Assembly: GCA_019638615.1 (NCBI GenBank)
Contig: JAHBTL010000043.1
Location: forward strand, 1-63,380
Length of the DNA stretch: 63,380 bases
Direction: 5' to 3'
Origin: Chitinophagaceae bacterium
Lineage (GTDB): Bacteria; Bacteroidota; Bacteroidia; Chitinophagales; Chitinophagaceae
The notes under the pieces were generated by a model. The model was not told where the DNA came from and ran no database searches. It saw only the letters and a program-made list of their open reading frames with translations. Shown in pieces: positions 8,105 to 22,842 of this stretch (positions within the stretch are counted from its first letter, which is position 1; every line of letters begins with the position of its first letter). Position numbers and translations under genes: made by a program.

Positions 8105-8155
8105 TACCCCTAACTTTTGTTCTATTGACCTGCAAATGTGCATACAGTAAGTTAG
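8105..8155 (+). promoter_or_regulatory. Shared upstream box plus inverted repeat, copy 1
   Basis: TAACTTTTGTTCTATTG (8111-8127) is identical at 9671-9687 and 11328-11344. With six further bases on the left (8105-8110) it is identical to copy 2. TAACTTTTG is close to the Bacteroidota -7 element TAnnTTTG. CTAACTT (8110-8116) is mirrored by AAGTTAG (8149-8155), exactly as in copy 2 with the same 39-base offset. The first ATG of the lipoprotein follows at 8173. Confidence 0.65.
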
Positions 8156-8172
8156 CAGGCAAATGGTATAAT

Positions 8173-9621
8173 ATGTACAAGTTTATCAGCATTGCTTTTT
8201 TCATCCTGTTTTTAATGCCGGGCTGTAAAAAGGCTAATATAGATACCGAAGATTTGCCCCCCGTTAATGAAACGCCGGCCATTACTGAAACGGGAACGCC
8301 TGCAGGAGCCGCAATCGTTAAGGAAATCGGTGCTGGTGGCGGGAAATTGAGCTCTGCTGATGGCAAAATTGATGTAATAATACCATCCGGCGCAGTTAAC
8401 GTCAATACGCAGTTCAGCATACAGCCCATTACAAATGAATGCCCTAATGGAAGAAATGCGTTCAGGCTCATGCCTTCAGGAATGGTGTTTGCCATGCCTG
8501 TTACCATTATATTTCATTATACCGATAAAGATATTGAAGGCAGTTTACCTGAGCTGCTGGCAGTTGCTTACCAGGACATCAATCAAATCTGGTACCGTAT
8601 TCCTTCAGCCGATATCGACACCATTGCAAAAACCATCTCCGTAAAAGCAAAACATTTTACCGACTGGTCAGACCTGGAAGGGTTAAAACTGAAAGCATCT
8701 TCTGAAGGTAAAGAAACAGGTGAAGTAAAAATAAGCAAGCAACTGCTACTGGAAGTATCCGGCACCAATGATGCCAAACCTTTACCACCGGCTCCGGATA
8801 ATCCTTCGCCCGAGGATGACGAGCTTCCGCCATTACCTCTTCCATCACCCAAAAAGCCTGAATGGTATGTTAACAGGTATAAAAAAGGCAATGCCACGGT
8901 AGGTACTGTTTCTCCTGCACCCGACGATTTAGGGACTTATTTTAAATACATGGCTATATATACTGCCCCTGATAAAGTACCCTCTCCTTCAACCGTTACA
9001 GTAAATGCAGAACTTACAGGGCTTAACTGGAAAGCCAAGGTACACGGACGTATGATCAGGTTTGAAAAAGTTATATTAAGCAAACCAATAAATATCATCG
9101 GGAATGAATATGATTATACGGTGGAGATAGCATATAACGATAATAATATAACCGGTTATACAGGGCAGCTATATACGGATAAGGCGAGCTTTAATATGCA
9201 TGTAAAATTAGAAGACGAGAATGCAGTAGTTGCTCTTTCAGAAATAAAGAACTATGACGCTTCTGTAACTCCCGAAGTAAAAACATATAATCTCCCGGGA
9301 TCTTCTATTACATTCACATGGCTTCATGGCGGGGGAATATCTAATGCAGGATTTATGAATATAACGGGAACCCAGGTTTCTCATTATTCCGAAAGTGACA
9401 CCCTGTTAAATCTTGCGCTGTTGCATAAGGACCCCATAAATGTAAAATTTGAATATAAATCCGTAGTTGGTGGCGGTTCACAAACAGGAATTATTGGCGG
9501 AGAACCTATGTCTAACGGAATCCCGGGCGATATACTCATGAAAGTAGTAAACAGGGAACAAATATTCAGGCAGGAAAACGGCATGGGTATATTTATTAAG
9601 ATCACACCGGTAAAGAAATAA
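8173..9621 (+). CDS. ZU5-domain lipoprotein (paralogue 1)
   Basis: I choose the ATG at 8173 because it gives a clean lipoprotein signal (MYKFISIAFFILFLMPGC, Cys18); the frame is open further upstream, but that part runs into the regulatory leader. The 482-residue product has an N-terminal ZU5-like domain at about residues 50-180, with the motifs GGKLSSADGKIDVIIPSGAV, FSIQPIT and AKHFTDWSDL. A Pro/Asp/Glu-rich linker (about residues 200-235, PLPPAPDNPSPEDDELPPLP) follows, then a C-terminal beta-rich region I do not recognise. ZU5 domains mediate protein contacts. It is probably anchored at the cell surface. The next gene is a paralogue, conserved through the linker and diverged after it. Confidence 0.85.
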   Translation: MYKFISIAFFILFLMPGCKKANIDTEDLPPVNETPAITETGTPAGAAIVKEIGAGGGKLSSADGKIDVIIPSGAVNVNTQFSIQPITNECPNGRNAFRLMPSGMVFAMPVTIIFHYTDKDIEGSLPELLAVAYQDINQIWYRIPSADIDTIAKTISVKAKHFTDWSDLEGLKLKASSEGKETGEVKISKQLLLEVSGTNDAKPLPPAPDNPSPEDDELPPLPLPSPKKPEWYVNRYKKGNATVGTVSPAPDDLGTYFKYMAIYTAPDKVPSPSTVTVNAELTGLNWKAKVHGRMIRFEKVILSKPINIIGNEYDYTVEIAYNDNNITGYTGQLYTDKASFNMHVKLEDENAVVALSEIKNYDASVTPEVKTYNLPGSSITFTWLHGGGISNAGFMNITGTQVSHYSESDTLLNLALLHKDPINVKFEYKSVVGGGSQTGIIGGEPMSNGIPGDILMKVVNREQIFRQENGMGIFIKITPVKK

Positions 9622-9664
9622 ATCTTAACCAACAGTTTCATACGATGCTCCATGATGTAGCTAC

Positions 9665-9715
9665 TACCCCTAACTTTTGTTCTATTGTTTCTGGTTTTTA
9701 CACAACGTAAGTTAG
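9665..9715 (+). promoter_or_regulatory. Shared upstream box plus inverted repeat, copy 2
   Basis: The 17-base box TAACTTTTGTTCTATTG lies at 9671-9687, preceded by the same TACCCC as copy 1. The inverted repeat CTAACTT (9670-9676) and AAGTTAG (9709-9715) has the same spacing as copy 1, although the bases in between differ. The lipoprotein ATG follows at 9737. Confidence 0.65.
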
Positions 9716-9736
9716 CTGCTTAAAATAATTACGGGT

Positions 9737-11149
9737 ATGAAAAGAGGAATATGTTTTTGTATCATTCTAATACTTGCGTCAGCAGCGTGTAAAAAAATCC
9801 CTTCGGAACAAATTAACAATTACCAGCCGGCCATTACACCGGTAGGTACACCTGACGGTGATGCTGTAACCAAAGAAATTGGCACAGCGGGAGGCAGTAT
9901 CAGTTCCGCAGATGGCAAAATTGATGTAACAATACCCTCCGGGGCTGTTACCGTCAATACGCAATTCAGCATACAGCCCATTACCAGTAATTGCCCGGGC
10001 GGATTGAATGCTTACCGGTTGCTGCCTTCAGGAATAACATTCCCCAATCCTGTTACCATCAGTTTTAAGTATACCGATGAAGAAACAGACGGCAGCCTGC
10101 CTGAATTATTGGGCATTGCTTTCCAGGATAAAAGCGGTATATGGTATCGCATCCCGTCGGCGAATATTGATACGGTGGCAAAAACCATTTCAGTAAAAGC
10201 GAAACACTTTACCGACTGGTCCAAATTATCCAGGCTGGCAATTATGCCGCGGGGTAATTTGTCGGTGAAAATAAAAAAATCACTGGATTTAAATGTTGTC
10301 GGAGCGCCGGATGCAGGCACATCGGTAAAACCTGATAATCCTACTCCCGGTGAAGACGATCTGCCGCCCCTGCCTCCCCCAACGCCTTTTAATACAGAAT
10401 GGTATGTAAACAAAGAAAAGGGCGGAAATGGGACCATTGGAACCATTCTTAACGGAAGTACAACCACAACAACCTATACCGCGCCGGAAAAAATTCCTTC
10501 TCCTTCCGTTGTTGCCGCACAGGCACAGCTTACCGGTTTTACCTGGAAGGCGAAGATAATGGGTCAGGAAATGGTCTTTAATAAAGTAGTGTTGCCGAAG
10601 CGGATCAAAATAACCGGGGAGGAAAAAAAGTTTGCTGTTACGTTGAGATACATAAAGGACACATCCGTTGGTATTCCCGGTCTCAGGTATGTGGATAGCG
10701 TGAGCATGATAATACACGTATCGCCTGACGCAAAACCAGACAGCGTTGTATTCGCCACCGATATTGAAAACCATGCTCCCGGATCCCTCCCCGACCCTTT
10801 TTTATATAAAGGTTGTTTTCTTCATGAATTTATTCCTGAAACCTATGGAACGATCCACTTCACATCCGGGAAAGGAAGGGTTTTCAGGGAATCGCTGGGC
10901 AGCGGGGCTTATAATGATATGGTGGAGGTTGACATGGCAAACGATCATACCGCCGCGCCAAGATGGAGAATAACCAATGGCTGCAACCCCGGGGGGCCGC
11001 TCACCTATATTCGCGGCGGAGATCTTAATGGCTCACCTATTAAATATCCTGATGGAGTGTTGAAATTTTATTTTCCGTTGACCCAGTCAACCATTCAAAC
11101 ACATCAAAGTTATCACCCTTATATAAGCTATACTGTTCAGCCATTATAA
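9737..11149 (+). CDS. ZU5-domain lipoprotein (paralogue 2)
   Basis: The 470-residue product starts MKRGICFCIILILASAAC, a lipoprotein signal ending at Cys18. Residues of about 35-165 repeat the ZU5-like domain of the preceding gene almost motif for motif (SSADGKIDVTIPSGAV, TQFSIQPIT, WYRIPSANIDT, VKAKHFTDWS). The acidic Pro-rich linker (KPDNPTPGEDDLPPLPPPTP) and the EWYVN that follows are also kept. The C-terminal half is diverged and of unknown function. This looks like a tandem duplication that included the upstream regulatory leader. Both products are probably displayed on the outer surface. Confidence 0.85.
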   Translation: MKRGICFCIILILASAACKKIPSEQINNYQPAITPVGTPDGDAVTKEIGTAGGSISSADGKIDVTIPSGAVTVNTQFSIQPITSNCPGGLNAYRLLPSGITFPNPVTISFKYTDEETDGSLPELLGIAFQDKSGIWYRIPSANIDTVAKTISVKAKHFTDWSKLSRLAIMPRGNLSVKIKKSLDLNVVGAPDAGTSVKPDNPTPGEDDLPPLPPPTPFNTEWYVNKEKGGNGTIGTILNGSTTTTTYTAPEKIPSPSVVAAQAQLTGFTWKAKIMGQEMVFNKVVLPKRIKITGEEKKFAVTLRYIKDTSVGIPGLRYVDSVSMIIHVSPDAKPDSVVFATDIENHAPGSLPDPFLYKGCFLHEFIPETYGTIHFTSGKGRVFRESLGSGAYNDMVEVDMANDHTAAPRWRITNGCNPGGPLTYIRGGDLNGSPIKYPDGVLKFYFPLTQSTIQTHQSYHPYISYTVQPL

Positions 11150-11204
11150 GCGCGTTAAAGGAAATCTCCGCGCACAATTATGTCTTTTAATGGCAATATT
11201 TCAT

Positions 11205-11310
11205 TCAATGTCGTTTCCTTAACATTTCTGTGTAGTTGCGGGTGTTTTCACCCGCAACGGCGACCGCCGATGTTGGTGTTTTCACCAACATCTTAAGGAA
11301 ACGACATTGA
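11205..11310. mobile_element. MITE-like element with 18-bp terminal inverted repeats
   Basis: The ends are perfect inverted repeats: TCAATGTCGTTTCCTTAA (11205-11222) and its reverse complement (11293-11310). They are flanked by a 10-base direct repeat, ATATTTCATT, at 11196-11205 and 11310-11319, as expected for a target-site duplication. Inside are two perfect 10-bp hairpins with TTTT loops: stem GTTGCGGGTG at 11235-11258 and stem GATGTTGGTG at 11269-11292. No protein is encoded. This is a miniature inverted-repeat element, or a strong bidirectional terminator derived from one, inserted between copies 2 and 3 of the shared-box genes. Confidence 0.8.
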
Positions 11311-11327
11311 TATTTCATTAGCACATA

Positions 11328-11344
11328 TAACTTTTGTTCTATTG
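11328..11344 (+). promoter_or_regulatory. Shared upstream box, copy 3
   Basis: TAACTTTTGTTCTATTG is identical to the boxes at 8111 and 9671. The accompanying AAGTTAG arm is absent here. The distance to the chosen ATG (11394) is 49 bases, the same as at copy 2 (49) and near copy 1 (45). Confidence 0.55.
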
Positions 11345-11393
11345 CCAAAGCTGCCAGGGCTATATACATTTAACGGGATCAAAGCCTGTAGTC

Positions 11394-13880
11394 ATGAAAA
11401 GAATATTTACATTGATAAGTTTCCTGGTCTTTTGCTATAACAGTAATGCCCAGGTGCAGGGCTCCTCGTTAGTAAATATACAGGGATGCGGAGGCGCAAC
11501 GCTGATAGGCACTCTCTTTTGGGGAACGGGCAATACGAATCCCGCAACGCTTTATTACGAAAAACAAGTGGGCACCAACTGGGTTCTGGTTACTTCGCAG
11601 GTTTGGGTAAGCGGCAATAACTATATCATCATCACACCCAGCGATATTAACACTGCCACGCTTTACAGGCTAAGGGTAAGAGACGAGGTAAGTACACAGG
11701 AGTTTATTTCTGCCGGCGTTACAGTCAACCCCGCTACATGGAATGCAACGTTGCCGTTTGGTAGTTCCGTAAGCGGATATACTGCATGGGGCAATGCATG
11801 CGGTTCGGGAGATGATTATTTATATGTTCAACCCCACACTTTACCCGGTGGCCGTCCTCCCTATAGAATTGAGTATAAAAAAACAACTGATGCAGACTAT
11901 ACGGTTGCTGCCGCAGAAGCACTAGGGGCTGATATCAATAATATTCTGCCCAATACCAATTATATGGTAAGGGTGACGGATTTTTGTGGCAGGGTGGCCA
12001 CATCAGGCGGCTTCAGGTTAAGAATAGAAGCTTCTCCTTTCATCACAGAACCAACCACCTGCAATAACGGCTTGATCCGCCTGTACACTTCAGGCAGCAT
12101 CGCCACGCTGGGAACGCCTCCTTTCACTTATGGCATCGGTAAGCATACCGATACAATGACGACCATTCGCCCGGCTTTGGTTTTCGGCACCAATGCCACT
12201 TTTTCCGGACTCGGGCCCGGTGATTATGATCTGCAGGTTAAAGACGCCTGCGGTATCTTGTCAGATATTATGTTTGTGCGCCTCGGCGGGGGATTGCCGA
12301 GAATATCTGTAATATATACAAACCCGGCTGCAGACTCCTGTTCCTATACTGCAGTCGTTACAAGGTTTACCGGAACTTACCCGCTCCGATATGGAATATT
12401 AGCCCCCGGGCAAACACAATACACTTACCAGGATGACAGTGTGTTCAATGGTCTTACAACGCCGGGCATTTATTACTTTAAAATAAAAGATCAGTGTGGG
12501 GACAGCAGTGTACCCCAGGCTATTCCCTTGTCGTTTGCACCCCCTGTTATTAATTCAGTGAGCGTTTTGCCGGGCCAGCCTTCGTGCAGCAAAAATTTTG
12601 TGATAAACACCGGAACAAAGTTGAAACCTTATCAATACGGTATCAGGCCAAAAAATACAGGAAGTTTTGTATACCAGCTTTCAGACACATTTCGTAATAT
12701 ACCACAGGGTTTATATGATTTAAGTGTAATGGACAGGTGCGGGCGGATATCCAATACTTTCGAGCTGGATATTAGGGACGCATCCTGCACGGTAAGAACA
12801 ATACCCGGAGATTTTGAAGTTGCCAATGCACAGGGTTGCAGCAATATGACCGGTAATGCCTGGATTGATGCAAAAGATGACAATGGCAATATTGTTTTTT
12901 CCATCAATCCACAGGGCAATGATCTGCAACAGGTATGCTGGGGTGTAAGGATCACAGACGGGATGGGAAGCAGTTTGCGCAGCACCGTTATCAACGGCTC
13001 AACAGTGTCATTCCTCGACCGGAATTTTTATATAGAGCCCAACCCGGCACCAACCCTCGCGCAACCTGTTTTGCTCAGGCTGTATTTCACCAATACCGAA
13101 TTGAGCAATATGCTTTGGTATTTACAGAATAATGGTTATCCGGCAGCTTCATTGGCCGATTTAAAGATCCTGAAGAAAAAGGGAAGCGCAGGCTCACCCG
13201 TTGACCTTGAAGTTACCAATGAAAATATTACACCTACCAGTCAACTGACCAGTATAGTGCCAACCATCGCGCCATTCGGTACAAACGACTGGTATATGGA
13301 ATTCAGCATCAGCAGCTTTTCGGAACTGATGACCTATATGGGCAACCTCAGCATACTTCCGCTCCGCTTTATTTCTTTTACTGCGAATAATCATGGCGAA
13401 GCAGTTACGCTGCAATGGAAAACCAGCAATGAAATCAATACCAAAAGCTTTGATGTGGAATGGAGCAAAGACGCGGTCACTTTTGTGAAGATCGGCTCTG
13501 TAGCTTCCGGGAATACCCCCGGAGAGCACAGCTATTCTTTTGAACATCGCCCGCCTGCAGGAGGAAGCAATTACTATCGTTTAAAACAATCAGATATCGA
13601 TGGAAAATTTGTTTACAGCGCAGTGGTTAAGATAAGCGTGGCTGGTAACAACGGAATAAAAGTGTATCCTAACCCTACACGTAATGACATGCAAATTGTA
13701 TTGAAGAACAGCAACGAAAAGATCAGGCAGATACAGCTAACAGATGCAACGGGAAAGCAATTATCGGTAAAGCAGCGCCAGGCAAACCATATTTCTCTTT
13801 CTTTCTTACCGCCGGGTATTTACTGGTTAAAAATCATGACAGATGCAGACGTATACATCCTTAAGATCAGCAGGCTGTAA
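11394..13880 (+). CDS. Large surface protein with T9SS type A sorting domain
   Basis: The preferred ATG at 11394 gives MKRIFTLISFLVFCYNSNAQ, a typical signal peptide with cleavage after NAQ; the longer frame would start inside the regulatory box. The 828-residue product is beta-rich, with several repeated units of about 100 residues that each have YGI and FxGLxPGxYDLxVKDxCG-like endings (SprB-like or adhesin-like). Near the C-terminus is an FnIII-like segment (LQWKTSNEINTKSFDVEWS, NYYRLKQSDIDGKFVYS). The last ~70 residues are the type IX sorting domain, with VYPNPT, LPPGIYWLKI and a basic end. It should be exported to or beyond the outer surface. Its role may be adhesion, inferred from the architecture. 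Confidence 0.85.
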   Translation: MKRIFTLISFLVFCYNSNAQVQGSSLVNIQGCGGATLIGTLFWGTGNTNPATLYYEKQVGTNWVLVTSQVWVSGNNYIIITPSDINTATLYRLRVRDEVSTQEFISAGVTVNPATWNATLPFGSSVSGYTAWGNACGSGDDYLYVQPHTLPGGRPPYRIEYKKTTDADYTVAAAEALGADINNILPNTNYMVRVTDFCGRVATSGGFRLRIEASPFITEPTTCNNGLIRLYTSGSIATLGTPPFTYGIGKHTDTMTTIRPALVFGTNATFSGLGPGDYDLQVKDACGILSDIMFVRLGGGLPRISVIYTNPAADSCSYTAVVTRFTGTYPLRYGILAPGQTQYTYQDDSVFNGLTTPGIYYFKIKDQCGDSSVPQAIPLSFAPPVINSVSVLPGQPSCSKNFVINTGTKLKPYQYGIRPKNTGSFVYQLSDTFRNIPQGLYDLSVMDRCGRISNTFELDIRDASCTVRTIPGDFEVANAQGCSNMTGNAWIDAKDDNGNIVFSINPQGNDLQQVCWGVRITDGMGSSLRSTVINGSTVSFLDRNFYIEPNPAPTLAQPVLLRLYFTNTELSNMLWYLQNNGYPAASLADLKILKKKGSAGSPVDLEVTNENITPTSQLTSIVPTIAPFGTNDWYMEFSISSFSELMTYMGNLSILPLRFISFTANNHGEAVTLQWKTSNEINTKSFDVEWSKDAVTFVKIGSVASGNTPGEHSYSFEHRPPAGGSNYYRLKQSDIDGKFVYSAVVKISVAGNNGIKVYPNPTRNDMQIVLKNSNEKIRQIQLTDATGKQLSVKQRQANHISLSFLPPGIYWLKIMTDADVYILKISRL

Positions 13881-13919
13881 AAGCGGGTTATTATTGCAAT
13901 TTAAGCATTACATTTAAGG

Positions 13920-16913
13920 ATGCGTTACCACTGCTGCATACTGCTTGTATTGTACGCTACGGCGGCGTTCAGCCAGGATTACCGTATTCAGCATTGGGGA
14001 GTGGAAGACGGGCTTTCGCAGGGCATCAATCAAAAAATACTAAAAGATAAAAGAGGATTTTTGTGGATCACTTCCTATGAAGGGCTCAACCGTTTTGACG
14101 GGAAAAATTTCAAAAATTTTTATTCCTTTCCTGAAAAAAGAAATGCAATAAGAGGTGCCGAAACAACCGGGCTGGTGGAAGACTCGCTGCATAATATCTG
14201 GATAGGCTCCGGAGAGGGACTCAGCAGGTATGATCCTGTTGCAGATTCAACCATTTTTTTTCTGCCTGAAGGAAAAAATTCTTTACAGCATTATTTTATA
14301 CCGCTGGCCGCTACTGCCGGTGAAGTGATCTGCTACGATATCGGCGGGCAATTAACCGCTTTCAGCATCCGCAACCTGAAAAAAAAAGTGATCTGCAATA
14401 ATATTTCCTGGCACGATGATTATTTATCCGCTATTCATAACTGGCTTGATAAGAAAAGAAATATTTTATGGATGCCTGCGGAGAAGGGTCTTTTAAAGAT
14501 CGATCTGAATACGGGTGATACTGCCACCTGGTTTGCCACGCAAAAAATAAATACTGTTATATACGACGACCAAAAGCAACTGATGATCATCGGAACAAAT
14601 GACGGCTATATGGAATGGAACATGAGGGAAGCAAACCATATTCGCCATATAAAAGAGTTAAACGCCCAACCTTTACAGAAAGTCACTTCTCTTGCAACAG
14701 ACATTTACCGCAATATGTGGGTGGGTACTGAAGAACACGGAATCTTCATGGTATCTGGCGATGGAAGCGTTTTGCGGTTCAATAAAAACAATGACCACCA
14801 AAGCTCCATCAACGACAATAAGATCAATACAATTTATTGTGATAACGATGGAACGGTTTGGGCAGGCATTGCTACAAACGGAATTGACCAGTTGATACCA
14901 GGCAACAGGTTTGAACATTTCCGGGAAAACTCCTTAAAAAATAACCTTACCAGTAACATAGTGCGTTGCTTTTTTGAAGATGAGAAAAAGCAGATATGGA
15001 TCGCCACCCAGGGAGGGGGGATAAATATATTTAATCCGGAGCAGAAAGCATTCTCATCCATTACACAAAAAAATGTTCCTGGTCTGCCTTTTGACTTTAT
15101 ACGCTTCATGGTGAAAGAAAACAATTACGCGCTGGTCGGAACAGAAAAAGGGATGTGCAGGCTGAACAGGCAGACTTTTGCTGCACACAAGATTCATTTT
15201 GCCGGAAACAAAAGTCAATCCATCTACGATCCCTATATTGAACAGATCATTGATTTTACAAATGACAGTTGGCTCATCGCAACAAAGTCTCACGGATTAT
15301 TTGAATTAAAAAAGAAAGCTGACACTGCCCGGCAACTGGATTTTCCCGGCAATAAGCATGTTTTTTATATTGCCTTTATAAATAATTTACTGTTTGTATC
15401 ATTGTGGGAGGGCAGTCAAAAAATTTTCGAAATAAAAAATGGCAATTGGGTTGACCTGAAAAAAGACATTCAATCCTCTCTTATCACCTATGTTTTATAC
15501 GATCAGCATAAAAAAAGATACTGGATCGGGACGCTGAAAGGGCTGCTTGAAGCCGACGCTGATTTAAGTGTTATTCACCACTATACCACAGATGACGGAT
15601 TAAGCAACAATTATGTATATGCGCTTTTGCAGGACGAATCCGGGATGATCTGGATAAGCACCAATAAAGGACTCTCCATGCTTAATCCTGCGACAGGCGT
15701 ATTCAATGTATTCACTCCTTCAGATGGGTTACAGGGATATGAATACAACGCGAAAGCATGTTTGCTTTCATCAGATAATAAATTGTATTTTGGGGGTGTA
15801 AACGGCTTCAATGTAATAAAGCCGGCAGCTATAACGCCCTTTTCTGCTGCTCCTTCGTTTTATATTAAAGAGCTGCTGGTTAATAATATTTTATTGCCTG
15901 GCGACAGGAACATCAGCTATATTTCAACAATACAATTGCCCTACACCGGCAATAATATAACCATACAATCAGGCGTAATAGATTTTATTGAAAAAGAAAA
16001 AAGTAAAATTTACTACCAGTTAAAAGGCATTGATACAGGCTGGCAAACTGCAGAAAGGGATTTTGTAATAAATTATTCAGGGCTGCCGCCGGGCAGTTAT
16101 ACGTTTAATGCAACCGCTTCTGCGGCAGATGGCAATAAAACCAATTCGTTTACAACATTACAAATTCAAATCAATAAGCCCTGGTGGCAAACATGGTGGT
16201 TCAGGTCAATCGTGGGTATCATATTGCTTGCTGTAGCGGGAACTATTATACATGCTTATTATTCCGGGAAGTGGGAAAAGCAAAAAGCATTACTGGAAAA
16301 GCAGTCTGCTATTGAACAGGAAAGAAACAGGATCGCTACAGACATGCATGATGACCTGGGAGCCGGACTGTCGAGGATCAGGTTTTTAAGTGAAACGATC
16401 GGGTTAAAAAAAGAAATGCAGGAGCCAATTGAAGAGGAGCTGGGCAAAATGCAGTGGTACGCGCATGAAATGATTGATAAAATGGGAGAGATTGTATGGG
16501 CATTGAATCAAAAGAACGATACACTGCCGGACCTGATCACCTATACAAGGGCCTATGCCGTTGAATATTTATCGCAAAGCAATATTCAATGTATCATGTC
16601 GGTTCCCGGTAAAATACCTGAAGCCGGGTTGAGCGGAGAATACAGGCGTAATGTTTTTCTTGCAGTTAAAGAAGCATTGCACAACATCGTTAAGCATGCC
16701 CATGCAACCCAGGTAAAGATGCATATAACCTGCGAAGACCTTTTAAATATAATTATCCATGATAACGGGGTGGGCTTTAATGAAACGGCACTTAAAAAAG
16801 CAGGGAACGGTCTTCACAATATGCGCAAACGTATTTCAGATATAAAAGGCGAAATGCACATCAATACAAATAATGGAACCCGGGTACAGTTTAAGATACC
16901 TTTTCCTGTATAA
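13920..16913 (+). CDS. Periplasmic-propeller sensor histidine kinase (HisKA_3 type)
   Basis: The 997-residue protein starts with a signal peptide (CILLVLYATAAFSQ). It continues with about 700 residues of two-component-regulator propeller repeats (GLSQGINQKIL, DKRGFLWITSYEGLNRFDG, DDGLSNNYVYALLQD), which form two periplasmic beta-propellers. A Y_Y_Y domain (about 650-740) comes next, then one membrane helix (WWFRSIVGIILLAVAGTII). The cytoplasmic part is a HisKA_3 dimerisation domain with the phospho-acceptor His810 in DMHDDLGAGLSRIR, and a HATPase with KEALHNIVKHAHAT, DNGVGF and GNGLHNM. There is no receiver domain, so it is not a one-protein hybrid; it should phosphorylate the LuxR-type regulator encoded 48 bp downstream. 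The ligand is unknown. Confidence 0.93.
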   Translation: MRYHCCILLVLYATAAFSQDYRIQHWGVEDGLSQGINQKILKDKRGFLWITSYEGLNRFDGKNFKNFYSFPEKRNAIRGAETTGLVEDSLHNIWIGSGEGLSRYDPVADSTIFFLPEGKNSLQHYFIPLAATAGEVICYDIGGQLTAFSIRNLKKKVICNNISWHDDYLSAIHNWLDKKRNILWMPAEKGLLKIDLNTGDTATWFATQKINTVIYDDQKQLMIIGTNDGYMEWNMREANHIRHIKELNAQPLQKVTSLATDIYRNMWVGTEEHGIFMVSGDGSVLRFNKNNDHQSSINDNKINTIYCDNDGTVWAGIATNGIDQLIPGNRFEHFRENSLKNNLTSNIVRCFFEDEKKQIWIATQGGGINIFNPEQKAFSSITQKNVPGLPFDFIRFMVKENNYALVGTEKGMCRLNRQTFAAHKIHFAGNKSQSIYDPYIEQIIDFTNDSWLIATKSHGLFELKKKADTARQLDFPGNKHVFYIAFINNLLFVSLWEGSQKIFEIKNGNWVDLKKDIQSSLITYVLYDQHKKRYWIGTLKGLLEADADLSVIHHYTTDDGLSNNYVYALLQDESGMIWISTNKGLSMLNPATGVFNVFTPSDGLQGYEYNAKACLLSSDNKLYFGGVNGFNVIKPAAITPFSAAPSFYIKELLVNNILLPGDRNISYISTIQLPYTGNNITIQSGVIDFIEKEKSKIYYQLKGIDTGWQTAERDFVINYSGLPPGSYTFNATASAADGNKTNSFTTLQIQINKPWWQTWWFRSIVGIILLAVAGTIIHAYYSGKWEKQKALLEKQSAIEQERNRIATDMHDDLGAGLSRIRFLSETIGLKKEMQEPIEEELGKMQWYAHEMIDKMGEIVWALNQKNDTLPDLITYTRAYAVEYLSQSNIQCIMSVPGKIPEAGLSGEYRRNVFLAVKEALHNIVKHAHATQVKMHITCEDLLNIIIHDNGVGFNETALKKAGNGLHNMRKRISDIKGEMHINTNNGTRVQFKIPFPV

Positions 16914-16926
16914 CCAATGTTCTATT
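16911..16926 (+). promoter_or_regulatory. Degenerate copy of the shared box before the response regulator gene
   Basis: TAACCAATGTTCTATT matches TAACTTTTGTTCTATT at 13 of 16 positions. It overlaps the kinase stop codon and lies 35 bases before the regulator ATG. It may be coincidence or an autoregulatory site. Confidence 0.3.
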
Positions 16927-16961
16927 TTACATGATACCGGTAATGTTTAACTTGAACACTT

Positions 16962-17588
16962 ATGAGCATAACCATAGCAATAGTAGAAGATCTTGAAGAA
17001 GTAAGAACAGGCCTGAAAAATTTCTTCAGCCTGAATAAGGAATTTACTGTATTAGATACATTCAGCACCGCAGAAGAGGCCTTATACGATATACCCAAAC
17101 TTAAACCCGATATTGTTATTATGGATATCAGCCTTCCGGAAATGGATGGCATAACATGCATACGCCAGGTTAAACGAAGTTGCCCTTCCACGCAGTTTAT
17201 GATGTTTACCATATACGAAACGGATGAAAAAGTATTTGAAGCGCTTAAGTCCGGCGCTTCAGGGTACCTGTTAAAAAACAGCGGGTTTAACCAGATAGCT
17301 GACGCGTTGAAGGAATTGCACAATGGCGGCTCACCCATGAGTGGCAATATCGCAAGAAAGCTCGTCAACATTTTCAGGGAAAACGAAAAAGACAGGGAGC
17401 GTATTGAAGTATTGAGCCATCGTGAAAATGATATCCTTGAGCTATTGGCCAACGGGCTATTGTATAAGGAAATTGCCGAAAAGCTTTCTATAAGTAACGG
17501 CACGGTTAAACAGCATATACACCGTATTTATGAAAAGCTGCATGTGCAAAACAGAACGGAAGCCATTAATAAAACGATCCGGCGATAA
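16962..17588 (+). CDS. NarL/LuxR-family response regulator
   Basis: The 208-residue protein has a receiver domain with the acidic pair near VEDLEE, the phospho-accepting Asp55 in VIMDISLPEMDG, the conserved Thr in MMFTIYE and Lys in LLKNSGF. A C-terminal LuxR-type helix-turn-helix (about residues 145-205) follows: LSHRENDILELLANGLLYKE, IAEKLSISNGTVKQHIHRIY. It begins 48 bp after the histidine kinase and is its likely partner. Phosphorylation should promote dimerisation and DNA binding. The identical boxes upstream of the three surface genes are plausible targets (inference). Confidence 0.93.
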   Translation: MSITIAIVEDLEEVRTGLKNFFSLNKEFTVLDTFSTAEEALYDIPKLKPDIVIMDISLPEMDGITCIRQVKRSCPSTQFMMFTIYETDEKVFEALKSGASGYLLKNSGFNQIADALKELHNGGSPMSGNIARKLVNIFRENEKDRERIEVLSHRENDILELLANGLLYKEIAEKLSISNGTVKQHIHRIYEKLHVQNRTEAINKTIRR

Positions 17589-17683: not shown

Positions 17684-19300
17684 TCAGTTCTGTTGTGCCA
17701 ACGGATTGTACAACATTTCGTTTTCAGGAATCTGCAAAGTCATATTAGGAACGCTGTAAGTAGTTTTAGTTACATGGTTGGCAGAGGAGGTTCTGTCTAC
17801 GGGAATGTTCCAGCGTTTGTTGTTGTAAAACTCTCTTCCGCCTTCGCCCCACAGCTCAATACGGGTTTGCAGTTGTACCATTTGTAAAGCGCTTAAGCCC
17901 GCCATGCCCGGATAGTTATCGCAGGTTAAAGTGGGGCTGCCGCTTTTGGTACGTGCAGCCAGTAACACATTCAATGTTGTTTTAGCCGCATCATCACTTA
18001 CGCTCTGTGCTTCAGCTTCTGCTTTCATCAACAATACTTCAGAACTGCGCATATAAAAAGCCGTAGAAGCGCCAACTTCCTTTTTGTCCGGACTACCCAA
18101 TCCATGGGTGGCAGCGAATTTGACATTGGTGTATGAAGGTATAAACGCCACTGTGCCTGTTACCGGGTAAGTATAGTTACCGAATGCATCCAGCATAAAG
18201 CAATCCTTACGGTAATCATCGTCCGCTATCTTTTCATACAAACGGTTGTCTATCCTTTTATACGCTCTTGATACCCCCCCATTGCCAATGCCAAAGCAGT
18301 TCATATAGCTGGTAAAATGTGTATTGGCCTGTCCTAAAGGAAAGCCCAATATTACCTCGGGGTTAACGGCATTATTCAAAAATCCATTGGTTTCCGGTAA
18401 AAAGGTAGGGTCTGTAGGGGTGCCGGTGTTTTTACCGCCATACTGCGCCTGGCTCATCAAAGTAGCATAGTTGCCCAGGATATTGTTACATGCTGTAATG
18501 GCTGTGGGCCAATCGCCTGTCCATACAGATACGCGTGCCAGCAGGAAATTAGCAACCCCCAGATCGATATCTGCCAAATCAGGTGTATACCCTATGCCCG
18601 CCGCCTGTAACAGTGTAATAGCGGTAGTGAGGTCGTTCTTAATAAACTGGTATGTTTCTGAAGATGATGCACGGGGTTTATTTTCCTGGTTTGGATTGAA
18701 TGTATCATACAACATAATACCCAGCTTATTATTGCCACCCTGCAGGTAAGCATCCTGGTAGTTTTCCATCAGGTAATTATAGGCATAAGCCCTTACTACC
18801 AGCCCTCTTGCCTTACAGTCTTTCAGGAAGCTGTTATTGGATACTATATCATCGGTAAGATAATTCAGCATTTGGTTGGCAATAGTAATGCAATACCAGG
18901 CATAGTTCCAGTATGCTACATTTTTACCATTGGCAGCCGTAATAAAATCACCCAATTGATATTCAACAGTACCAAAAAGAACATTCAGACCTTCCTGGTC
19001 ACCCATAATCAAATCATTCCCTTCAAGGCTTCGGTTGGCGTCCAGTCCCTGGTTGGTATAATACATATCTGCCACACCTGAACCTGTACCGCCGGCATTA
19101 TTAAAAAGCAAGGGCATATTATTCGCCATACTCCCCATTACGGTTCTTATTTTGGCCGTATCACCTGATGCCAGCAAGTCAGCAATCTGCTGATCATAAA
19201 TATTATTGGGCGGAGTTACCTCCAGCTTTTTTGAACAGGCTGAAAAAAACAGGAGGGCCAACACAACCGAACCCATTATATATTTTCTCATAATTTTCAT
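17684..19300 (-). CDS. SusD/RagB family glycan-binding lipoprotein
   Basis: The 538-residue product has a lipoprotein signal (GSVVLALLFFSAC) and the SusD/RagB fold markers: a tetratricopeptide-rich N-terminal part, ARGLVVRAYAYNYLMENYQD, RIELWGEGGREFYNNKRW near the C-terminus, and a closing LQIPENEMLYNPLAQQN. SusD proteins lie on the outer membrane as the lid of the SusC channel and capture the substrate. It starts 11 bp after the SusC gene ends, so they are co-transcribed. This branch resembles the SusD-like proteins of large Chitinophagaceae paralogue sets; the ligand cannot be read from the sequence. Confidence 0.95.
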   Translation of the reverse strand: MKIMRKYIMGSVVLALLFFSACSKKLEVTPPNNIYDQQIADLLASGDTAKIRTVMGSMANNMPLLFNNAGGTGSGVADMYYTNQGLDANRSLEGNDLIMGDQEGLNVLFGTVEYQLGDFITAANGKNVAYWNYAWYCITIANQMLNYLTDDIVSNNSFLKDCKARGLVVRAYAYNYLMENYQDAYLQGGNNKLGIMLYDTFNPNQENKPRASSSETYQFIKNDLTTAITLLQAAGIGYTPDLADIDLGVANFLLARVSVWTGDWPTAITACNNILGNYATLMSQAQYGGKNTGTPTDPTFLPETNGFLNNAVNPEVILGFPLGQANTHFTSYMNCFGIGNGGVSRAYKRIDNRLYEKIADDDYRKDCFMLDAFGNYTYPVTGTVAFIPSYTNVKFAATHGLGSPDKKEVGASTAFYMRSSEVLLMKAEAEAQSVSDDAAKTTLNVLLAARTKSGSPTLTCDNYPGMAGLSALQMVQLQTRIELWGEGGREFYNNKRWNIPVDRTSSANHVTKTTYSVPNMTLQIPENEMLYNPLAQQN

Positions 19301-19311
19301 CTTTAATTAAT

Positions 19312-22300
19312 TTAGAAATTCACATTTAGTCCTACAGACATTGAACTATAAGGAAGATATACTGCAGCACCCACTTCCATACCTCCTACCAGCGACATGC
19401 GGGGGTCAATGCCCGAATGTGAAGTGAACATGGCTATATTATCCGCAGATGCATAGATCCTGATATTTTTAGCCTTTATTTTATCTGCTATAGCGCTGCT
19501 GAAGTTATACCCTAAGGTTAGGTTTTTAATATTCAGGTAAGATGCATTAAATAAAGACATATCACTGTATTGCCATGAGCCATGGGTAGAGCCTGCCGTA
19601 TACCTGTCATCCCCATAAAAAGTCATAGGGAATTTGGCACCTTTATTTTCCGGCGTCCAGGTATTACCCAGCAACTCTGCGGATAATGCATTGCCTATAT
19701 TGCCACTCCTGTATAAATGGTTAGCATATTCCACACTAAAAAATTTACCCCCTATCTGGTAGGCTAATATCGCCGTAAAATCAAAGCCTTTGTATTGTAG
19801 CATTGTAGTAAACCCGCCTATCCATTTTGGCAAAGCACTTCCCATACTATAACGATCAGCCATGGTATAATTGGTTGTACTTACAATATCTCCCGGCTTG
19901 CTGCCACCAAAAAGCCCGTCATCAAGATTTTTTTGTGTTACAGTATGATGGAACAACGGCAATCCGGTGCTTTGATCAACACCAGCATATTTAAACAAAT
20001 ACAGGTTGTAATAATCCATTCCTTCCCCACGTAAAAAAGTTTGCCCGGCAGAAGTAGCGCCGCCACTGGCAGCACCCCATCCGTCAATATCTGCAATATA
20101 TTTATTACCCAATGCGGCAGACAATACAGTTGGAGGCACTTTTAATAAAATGGTTCGGTAATGAGTGCCGTTTAAGCCAATGTTCCACCTGAAATTTTGA
20201 TTACGGATCACATCAATATTCAATTCAACTTCAAAACCACGGTTTACAATTTCTGCGCTGTTTCGCCTTAACACTCTTTGACCCAATGAATATGCTATTG
20301 GCTCATCGTAAACTGAGTTAACTGTGCGTTTGTTATAATAGTCAACAGACCCATTGATCCTCCTGTCCCACAAAGAAAAATCTATACCCCCATCAATGGT
20401 ATGTGTATTTTCCCAGGTGATTGCTGGTTGTATTGATCCCTGGCTCAGGGTATAGCTAACCGGTACCCCGGTACCATTGTTCACCATTGAGTATACAGCT
20501 CCGTAGTTCCACAACTGGTATCCTGAATAATTACCGATACCACTCTGGTTGCCTATCACGCCATAGCTGGCTCTGAGTTTTAGATCATTCAACCAGTTTT
20601 TGGTATCCTGCATAAAATTTTCTTCGCTTAAGCGCCAGCCTGCTCCAACAGACCAGAAAGTACCCCAGCGGTCTTTCTCATACCTGAATTTGGATGACCC
20701 ATCGCGTCTTGCAGAACCTTCCAGGAAATATTTTTCGTTGTAGTTGTAACTAACCCTGCCGAAATAGCTCTCAAGAGCTGATATATCACCACCACCGCCA
20801 GGTGTACCGAATGGCGCACCTGAAGAATTATAACGGGATACAAAGTTGGCATATCCGGTAAAGTCATTGATAATTGAGTATGCAGAAGCATAGTTCAACA
20901 AATCGCTTTTATACTGGTAATATTCATGTCCGGCTAATGCTGTAAATGAATGTTTGCCGAAGCCTTTATTCCAGTTTAACAATTGTTGCGAATTAAACAC
21001 GCTTGTATTGGAATAGTATTGCCCCATAGCTCCAGAGCCTGCAACAGCCCCGGTTTCGGGGTTACCGTAACGCAGGCGAACTTCCGAAAACCGGTCGTAA
21101 GAAAGATTGACAGTAAACCTGAAATCTTTTAAAAAGTTTACGGTAGCATACCCTTTCAGGTTCAGGTCATGCGATTCTCTCCTGTCAATGTCCTTATCTA
21201 AAAGTTTAATAAGGTTGGTAGTATAAAGTGGCTGGCTGGTAGTTCCATTGGGGAACTGAGGGGTAGACTGAAGCTGCACACCCAGCGGAGTGTAACTTAC
21301 ATTGGCATTGTCATGCACCCTGTCGGTACCATCCGGGTTCTTCATAATGTTACCGTCTTTATCACGGGCAAACAGAGGGATCAAAGGGTTTTGCCCGTTC
21401 GTCCAACGAAAAGCATTCTGCTGCACGGTACCCGGGTTACGACCAAACCGGGTAGCCGGAGATTGTGTGTTACGGTAACTATATCCCATATTGGCGCCTA
21501 CTTTTAACCAACTGGTTAATTGCGCATTTATATTGCTTCTTACATTATATCTTTTAAATTTTGACCCCCTGATATAAGAAGGATCTTCCAACATACCAAG
21601 TGAAACGAAATAGTCCATTTTTTCAGTTCCGCCACTCGCAGAGAGTGTATGCTCCTGGCGGAACATCCTTTCAAAAAAATAATTCTCGTACGAGCCGGCT
21701 TCGTATAGCTGTCTTGCGTTCGGATTTAATTTACCGTCAGTATTTACGAGGTAAGCGCCAGACATGGTAGCACTGGCACTAGCGCTGCCTTTTGTTGGGT
21801 CTGGAACGCCCGTAAGGGTATATACTGCACCTGGCACATCATACAACATCCAGTTTCCCAGTGCATTGCGTGAAAAATTTGTCATAGACCCCGCATAATC
21901 AAACAAATGCGCACTGGCAAATTCGGCCGCTTCCTGGTGAGACATATTTGGATTCTGTACATTTGTTGTGAACTTGCCATTGGTTGAGGAGCTACCCTCA
22001 TATCCATACCTCGCAGAGTTGTAAATGGCGAGCCAGGCATGTTCGTAAAAATCTTTGGCATTATCAATTCTGTCATACCGCATGGTGCCCAGGAAGTTAT
22101 AGCCCATACGTGTTTCAAATGAAATATTGGCTTTACTTCTTGAACCTTTTTTTGTTGTAACGAGTAATACACCGTTAGAACCACGAGAACCATATACAGC
22201 CGTGGATGCAGCATCCTTTAGTACGCTAATACTTTCAATATCTTTTGGATTGATAGAAGCAAGTGCATTAGGATATTCTGTAGGTACCCCATCAATTACA

Positions 22301-22842
22301 ATCAATGCATTAGAACTGTTTTGCATCGTAGAACCTGCGCCGCGCAAACGGATCCCCATATCCAAACCAGGTTGGCCGTCTATAGACGAAACCTGTATAC
22401 CGGGTACTACGCCCTCGAGTGCACGGGTAACTGTAGAGTTGGCCTGTGTGGAAATTATTTTGGAGTTAACCTGCGTAACAGCACCGGTATAGTCCCGTTT
22501 TTTGGCAGTACCATACCCGATTACCACCAGCGTATCCATGGCAGAAAGCGCTTCGGACAGTTTAACATTGATATTGGTATTGGTACCTACTCTTACTTCC
22601 TGCGTGCCATACCCAACAAAGCTGAATACCAGCACTGCGTTGGCAGAAGGAACATTGCCAAGGGTGAACATTCCGTTTTCAAGGGTAGAGGTACTGTTCC
22701 TGGTTCCTTTCACAGACACGGTTACTCCTTCCATGGCATTGCCATTTGCATCGGTAACCTTACCTGAAACAGAAACCTGCGCATTTGCTGCTATACAAAC
22801 GCACAAAAAGCAGGAGAGCATGAAAAGCAGCTTCTTCTTCAT
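19312..22842 (-). CDS. SusC/RagA family TonB-linked outer membrane protein
   Basis: The 1176-residue protein has a signal peptide (LFMLSCFLCVCIAANAQ), a carboxypeptidase-regulatory-like domain (about residues 20-100, VSGKVTDANGNAMEGVTVSV), the phylum signature DTLVVIGYGTAKKRDYTGAV at about 105-125, and a plug domain with LRGAGSTMQNSSNALIVIDG and ISVLKDAASTAVYGSRGSNG. A 22-strand beta-barrel follows and ends in Phe (MSVGLNVNF), as needed for barrel insertion. It imports an oligomer in a TonB-dependent manner with the SusD lid. No ECF sigma/anti-sigma pair sits next to it; the nearest regulators are the convergent two-component pair. Confidence 0.95.
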   Translation of the reverse strand: MKKKLLFMLSCFLCVCIAANAQVSVSGKVTDANGNAMEGVTVSVKGTRNSTSTLENGMFTLGNVPSANAVLVFSFVGYGTQEVRVGTNTNINVKLSEALSAMDTLVVIGYGTAKKRDYTGAVTQVNSKIISTQANSTVTRALEGVVPGIQVSSIDGQPGLDMGIRLRGAGSTMQNSSNALIVIDGVPTEYPNALASINPKDIESISVLKDAASTAVYGSRGSNGVLLVTTKKGSRSKANISFETRMGYNFLGTMRYDRIDNAKDFYEHAWLAIYNSARYGYEGSSSTNGKFTTNVQNPNMSHQEAAEFASAHLFDYAGSMTNFSRNALGNWMLYDVPGAVYTLTGVPDPTKGSASASATMSGAYLVNTDGKLNPNARQLYEAGSYENYFFERMFRQEHTLSASGGTEKMDYFVSLGMLEDPSYIRGSKFKRYNVRSNINAQLTSWLKVGANMGYSYRNTQSPATRFGRNPGTVQQNAFRWTNGQNPLIPLFARDKDGNIMKNPDGTDRVHDNANVSYTPLGVQLQSTPQFPNGTTSQPLYTTNLIKLLDKDIDRRESHDLNLKGYATVNFLKDFRFTVNLSYDRFSEVRLRYGNPETGAVAGSGAMGQYYSNTSVFNSQQLLNWNKGFGKHSFTALAGHEYYQYKSDLLNYASAYSIINDFTGYANFVSRYNSSGAPFGTPGGGGDISALESYFGRVSYNYNEKYFLEGSARRDGSSKFRYEKDRWGTFWSVGAGWRLSEENFMQDTKNWLNDLKLRASYGVIGNQSGIGNYSGYQLWNYGAVYSMVNNGTGVPVSYTLSQGSIQPAITWENTHTIDGGIDFSLWDRRINGSVDYYNKRTVNSVYDEPIAYSLGQRVLRRNSAEIVNRGFEVELNIDVIRNQNFRWNIGLNGTHYRTILLKVPPTVLSAALGNKYIADIDGWGAASGGATSAGQTFLRGEGMDYYNLYLFKYAGVDQSTGLPLFHHTVTQKNLDDGLFGGSKPGDIVSTTNYTMADRYSMGSALPKWIGGFTTMLQYKGFDFTAILAYQIGGKFFSVEYANHLYRSGNIGNALSAELLGNTWTPENKGAKFPMTFYGDDRYTAGSTHGSWQYSDMSLFNASYLNIKNLTLGYNFSSAIADKIKAKNIRIYASADNIAMFTSHSGIDPRMSLVGGMEVGAAVYLPYSSMSVGLNVNF

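Follow-up and report, generated by a model that had tools for sequence, protein, structure and literature searches.

The locus considered here raises the question of why one 17-bp sequence should stand, letter for letter the same, before three neighbouring genes for surface proteins, and which protein would read it. It lies in a stretch of 63,380 nucleotides from a Chitinophagaceae bacterium (contig JAHBTL010000043.1), which is analysed as a whole and called the window. A preliminary description had proposed a small regulon of cell-surface proteins controlled by its own sensor, beside a kinase and a LuxR-type regulator, and had suggested that the box could combine a promoter with an operator. 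Except for the promoter element assigned to the box, this proposal is supported by the present analysis, in which control by the adjacent kinase and LuxR/NarL-type regulator is very probable and the arrangement was found to recur in other genera.

Genes and boxes of the locus

The features of the locus, all on the + strand, are as follows.

8111..8127, +: box 1, putative operator TAACTTTTGTTC and candidate -33 element TATTG; exact 17-mer, perfect match to the composite motif
8148..8155, +: predicted -7 element TAAGTTAG of promoter 1
8173..9621, +: lipoprotein P0001, 482 aa, with a ZU5-like N-terminal region (sub-threshold); lipobox read from the sequence
9671..9687, +: box 2; exact 17-mer, perfect match to the composite motif
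9708..9715, +: predicted -7 element TAAGTTAG of promoter 2
9737..11149, +: lipoprotein P0002, 470 aa, tandem paralogue of P0001 (45% aa identity)
11328..11344, +: box 3; exact 17-mer, perfect match to the composite motif
11365..11372, +: predicted -7 element TACATTTA of promoter 3
11394..13880, +: T9SS-exported protein P0003, 828 aa, with a C-terminal type A sorting domain
13920..16913, +: sensor histidine kinase P0004 (Reg_prop propeller, Y_Y_Y, HisKA_3, HATPase_c; four families above cut-offs)
16911..16927, +: box 4, degenerate, before the response regulator; first three letters are the kinase stop TAA; perfect match to the composite motif
16948..16955, +: -7-like TAACTTGA of promoter 4, at the same offset from the box as in the other copies
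16962..17588, +: NarL/LuxR-type response regulator P0005, 208 aa (Response_reg and GerE)

The two lipoproteins have no Pfam or NCBIfam family match at E 1e-3, and their ZU5 scores (PF00791; 13.8 bits for P0001 and 13.2 for P0002) lie below the cut-off of 21, which one of two homologues at a related locus in another genus (L144, discussed below) passes with 25.1 bits, the other scoring 18.6. P0003 is a type A cargo of the T9SS by its sorting domain (PF18962, 44.6 bits, cut-off 27; TIGR04183, 47.3 bits, cut-off 23); among the matches listed, its relatives begin after residue 350 except the window's own and that of G105 (residues 15-261). P0004 has the propeller repeats, Y_Y_Y, HisKA_3 and HATPase domains of a Reg_prop sensor histidine kinase, and no receiver or DNA-binding domain was found in it at E <= 1e-3, the regulator being encoded by a separate gene. 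P0005 has the domains of a NarL/FixJ regulator (PF00072, 84.3 bits, cut-off 30.2; PF00196, 65.5 bits, cut-off 23.5). Two GGTGTTTTCACC hairpins between the P0002 gene and box 3 (11205-11310) are framed by a 28-nt inverted repeat with 86% complementarity; the whole may be terminator-like or a small mobile hairpin element. Beyond the regulator and convergent with it are genes without a box that we take to be SusD-like and SusC-like (17684-22842, - strand). Such a pair, the T9SS cargo and the Reg_prop kinase together are gene content that points to Bacteroidota.

The 17-mer TAACTTTTGTTCTATTG was found exactly where it had been described, at 8111, 9671 and 11328 on the + strand, and the earlier distance of 45-49 bp to the starts was borne out by gaps of 45, 49 and 49 nt between the box end and the ATGs at 8173, 9737 and 11394. 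Only one of 100 window shuffles gave at least three matches, even with up to three mismatches allowed. A search of the genome itself (7,180,285 bases in 87 contigs), one of the checks proposed at the outset, returned three exact copies, all in the window, none at one mismatch in the 7.18 Mb and three places at two mismatches. At up to three mismatches there were 40 places against 56 for the reversed pattern; since this control is the higher of the two, such weak matches are noise. The weaker copy noted at 16911, TAACCAATGTTCTATTT, agrees with the box in 13 of 17 letters, and is real. A relaxed composite motif has just four perfect matches in the genome, namely the three boxes and this weak site, each before one of four cluster genes; the other 29 places, with one or two mismatches, are noise (33 in all, control 36).

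Could the repeats be neutral leftovers of tandem duplication, or have arisen by chance? The genes after copies 1 and 2 are indeed tandem paralogues, and these two copies are not independent of one another, because their promoters (62% alike) resemble each other about as much as the coding sequences do (58-64%), the identical positions clustering in the box and the -7. Copy 3, on the other hand, stands before a gene unrelated to the genes after copies 1 and 2, and its flanks are unrelated as well: over 94-bp promoter regions, copies 2 and 3 share 49 matches, box included, which is hardly above the shuffle mean of 47.5. Copy 3's gene and flanks led us to reject a neutral remnant of duplication alone, and window shuffles, genome counts and family-wide exact copies a chance origin of the box. 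With exact copies in 14 other genomes of the family and a box or variant before all 20 close regulators, both described below, we consider this reading improbable in the extreme.

Anatomy of the promoters

The 47 sites aligned here, with up to two mismatches, come from the window and from 19 further loci, all selected because they carry the box. Beyond the box itself a single element is strongly conserved, with TA at +38/39 and TT at +42/43 counted from the box start; TAnnTT occurs at +38 in 40 of the 47 sites, whereas the other offsets between 18 and 85 have on average 0.42 occurrences each. We identify this element as the Bacteroidota -7 element TAnnTTTG (+38 to +45), which two studies (PMC9723704, PMC7366714) place at -12 to -5, together with a second element near -33. 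The promoters are thus of the Bacteroidota housekeeping type, although the final G is often missing, and the transcription start is a predicted one. With the -7 at +38, the predicted start comes to about position 50 counted from the box start, which places TATTG near -33 and the centre of TAAC-N4-GTT(C/A) near -43. In the window, transcription would then begin near 8160, 9720, 11377 and 16960, the last some 2 nt ahead of the regulator's ATG. The assignment of TATTG as the -33 element is less certain than that of the -7, because a -33 motif was not found in Flavobacterium johnsoniae according to the available text of one of these studies (PMC7366714).

This layout changes the earlier reading in two respects. 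The part TAACTTTTG of the box had been suggested as a -7-like element, which was wrong: the conserved TAnnTT at +38 rules out the box as a -7 element, and its TATTG end lies at -33 instead. An inverted repeat CTAACTT/AAGTTAG with a 39-bp offset had also been described, and does exist in copies 1 and 2; its distal part AAGTTAG, however, is better explained as part of the -7 TAAGTTAG. As an operator arm it was rejected, being absent from copy 3, where TACATTTA occupies the same offset. At the weak site before the regulator, the -7-like TAACTTGA stands at the common offset.

Searched together at up to three mismatches, box and -7 occur at 49 places in 16 chosen genomes (control 9) and at three in the window's own genome (control 1). 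Two of the 16 gave no match, G295 and G139, the latter having a 55% identical regulator. Variants of the box such as TAACTTAAGTTATATTG contain a perfect 12-bp palindrome, TAACTTAAGTTA; in the commonest box the palindrome is imperfect, with three of six pairs matching. Trying every centre with at least four pairs in the commonest box revealed no dyad better than half matched, so the palindrome rests on the variants of relatives. In two loci the box occurs in pairs, 61 bp apart in one (L178, 11886 and 11947) and 32 bp apart in the other (L183, 402 and 434), which are possibly double sites.

The position of the box bears on what a bound regulator might do there. Class II activators contact RNA polymerase from a site that overlaps or abuts the -35/-33 element, and the geometry of the box, whose putative operator abuts the -33 element, fits this. 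The same regulator could also act as a repressor at the same site, covering the -33 element, in which the box ends, and blocking RNA polymerase until a signal changes its phosphorylation; members of the NarL family can repress. Repressor sites, however, tolerate variable placement, while the fixed spacing from box to -7 (40 of 47 sites) is the layout expected of an activator that contacts polymerase, and repression therefore seems to us unlikely. Much less likely still is action of the box in an RNA leader, for instance in translational control. It would suit the distance of the box start from the start codon, which is 48-72 nt at 30 of the 43 sites for which a following gene was identified, but the -7 lies 38 bp downstream at fixed spacing, so that the box would be upstream of the predicted start and outside that transcript.

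Distribution of box and regulator in the family

The proposed search of relatives was also carried out. Of 394 family genomes, 15 contain the exact box, and these belong to 9 of 101 genera; there are 30 places in all, as compared with two for the reversed pattern, and 14 of the 15 genomes are other than the window's own. The exact box was found in none of the 11 other genomes of the window's own genus, where there is no orthologous locus, only distant homologues, and where the best kinase matches are 26-35% identical. Two of those 11 genomes hold three places at one mismatch, none with a -7 at +38; two of the places are inside genes and one is about 170 bp before an unrelated lipoprotein-like gene. 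Across the order, a strict composite motif occurs in 3 of 396 sampled genomes, all from the window's family.

In another genus (G050), locus L144 has a kinase and a regulator of 70% identity alongside ZU5-like homologues; the box occurs there three times exactly and once with one mismatch, and none of 200 shuffles reached four. At L143 a box with one mismatch precedes a 72% identical regulator. On gene maps drawn for 20 loci around box hits, the boxes lie mainly between the kinase and a P0005-related NarL-type regulator and ahead of genes for exported proteins next to them. In 11 of 13 mapped regulator promoters (the window and 12 others) the first three letters of the box are the kinase's TAA stop.

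With the kinase as query, seven of the 394 family genomes gave a match at E <= 1e-110; one of them is the window's own genome, and the best match in the others is 55% identical. A separate search for loci related through the kinase gave 43, none with a match to the lipoproteins at E 1e-5. The closest kinase (G058, 54-55%) adjoins a gene that we take to be dxs-like and has no adjacent lipoprotein genes, so kinase and targets are not strictly linked. In that genome the kinase is followed by the start of another kinase (L140), and a nearly identical kinase start stands with a regulator and boxes on another contig (L173), which suggests that an older form of the locus had two kinases in tandem.

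Regulators like P0005 (E <= 1e-68) were found in 32 of the 394 genomes, in 20 of them at 66% identity or more. Such a close regulator is present in 14 of 15 genomes with the exact box and in 6 of 379 others (Fisher p 2.9e-20, treating genomes as independent, which they are not). Ahead of every one of the 20 close regulators, 48-55 bp from the ATG, stands the box or a variant of it; in the six genomes without an exact box it is a variant that occupies this place. On a scoring matrix trained on the 47 sites, 12 regulator promoters among them, nine relatives' regulator sites from outside the training set score 22.7-36.5; the window's own regulator site, likewise outside it, has the lowest score of the 20 (14.1, the others 22.7-40.5).

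The letters of the box change with the regulator. Boxes like TAACGTTCGTCCTATTG, belonging to regulators 58-62% identical to P0005, were found at 13 places in 11 of 20 chosen genomes, with none in the control. By coordinate comparison two of the places are ordinary boxes, and the other 11 include six exact copies. Ten of these 11 lie 49-54 bp before a P0005-like regulator, the exception being in G096. The candidate operators of the two kinds are TAACTTTTGTTC and TAACGTTCGTCC, and the regulators themselves are paralogues, because eight of the ten genomes with a variant-box regulator also have one at 66% identity or more.

In a tree of 39 regulators, box presence requires four changes, as compared with 10.5 in shuffles (0 of 500 as low); 27 rows count as having a box, two of them weak (L240, L245), and 12 are without one by the cut-offs used. 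Of the ten variant-box regulators the tree contains only three, which group with L239 in a single clade (100/100). L239 itself shows no box within the 145 bp seen; its genome is G096, in which the variant box is on another contig, away from any listed regulator. Regulators with the recognition helix HIGK (L242, L246, L247) are without a box, and two sister sequences with TVRIHIH (L232, L235) share a GTCA variant, both pairings representing few independent events.

Another protein might read the box, either a different regulator or an alternative sigma factor with an extended -33, the neighbouring regulator being merely a target. The regulator gene is indeed itself a target, and one genome (G295) has the box without a close regulator. 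There, at about 9303 of L174, the box precedes a response-regulator-like frame interrupted by a stop, with TAnnTT one base nearer than usual; this copy looks decayed. Against a different reader, however, presence of the box tracks the regulator group, its letters change with the regulator paralogue, and the -7 is of the housekeeping TAnnTTTG type. We rate this reading as improbable, somewhat more so than repression. The box is very probably the docking site of the adjacent regulator, because this tag marks the promoters of regulator and exported genes and recurs likewise in other genera.

What the boxes precede was assessed with simple rules, an ORF being at least 100 aa within 320 bp and exported-like status following from hydrophobicity. 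Of the 47 sites, 30 are before exported-like genes (28 different), 12 before a response regulator, one before another gene and four without an ORF. Under the same rule 84 of 141 genes not after a box, from 13 of those loci, are exported-like, so such genes abound in the neighbourhood with or without a box. In a Pfam scan of ten cluster proteins the boxed genes include OMP beta-barrel, NHL, TPR and YadA-head matches; three of the ten have no match at 1e-3.

A proposed regulon and its relation to known systems

What the sequence itself shows is the box with its constant spacing to the -7, its location ahead of regulator and exported genes, and the way it occurs and varies together with the regulator group. 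These features make it likely that the two-component system and the surface-protein genes form one autoregulated regulon, in which P0005 would bind the box and activate. First, the propeller sensor kinase P0004 probably phosphorylates P0005. Second, P0005 dimers would bind the 12-bp TAAC-N4-GTT(C/A), the first 12 letters of the box, which directly abuts the putative -33 TATTG, itself 20 bp upstream of the housekeeping-type -7 TAnnTTTG. Finally, bound with its centre at about -43, P0005 could contact RNA polymerase as a class II activator and switch on the two lipoprotein genes, the gene of the T9SS-exported protein and, more weakly, its own. Direct binding, phosphorylation, activation rather than repression and the transcription starts are what we infer.

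In the window (16911-16962) and in relatives (box start to ATG 48-55 bp) the predicted start lies within about 6 nt of the regulator's ATG, so the regulator mRNA is predicted to be leaderless or nearly so. A further reading, which we put forward tentatively and at slightly less than even chances, is a switch with positive feedback whose DNA code is specific to the paralogue: the operator would overlap the kinase stop and drive a nearly leaderless regulator mRNA together with a changing set of surface proteins, its letters diverging along with the duplicated regulators across the family. The analysis thus proposes a specific operator for a propeller-sensor and NarL-type two-component system in a Bacteroidota family, and a DNA motif that would predict which exported proteins answer to which sensor. 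Because box and regulator paralogues diverge together, recognition specificity is directly open to study here.

Three known systems invite comparison. P0005 resembles the NarL/FixJ regulators NarL, VraR and DevR in having a receiver and GerE, with PDB relatives at E 1e-28 to 1e-33; regulators of this group typically control their own genes and have short dyad sites near -40. In contrast to these, the promoter here is of the Bacteroidota kind (-7 TAnnTTTG, putative -33 TATTG) rather than sigma-70, and the operator would be TAAC-N4-GTT(C/A) with exported-protein targets. P0004 is like the Reg_prop/Y_Y_Y sensors of Bacteroidetes HTCS in placing propeller and Y_Y_Y before the kinase. In HTCS, however, receiver and DNA-binding domain are fused to the kinase, whereas P0004 is not a hybrid, being of the HisKA_3 type with a separate NarL-type regulator. 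The sigma-ABfr promoters of Bacteroidetes likewise have a -7 TAnnTTTG and an element near -33, as given in the two studies (PMC7366714, PMC9723704), but here the -33 end is joined directly to a conserved site of 12 bp on its upstream side. In literature searches of partly accessible sources, no description was found of the whole system or of an operator TAAC-N4-GTT(C/A) with exported-protein targets, nor was the box, as one string in forward orientation, found in the text searched.
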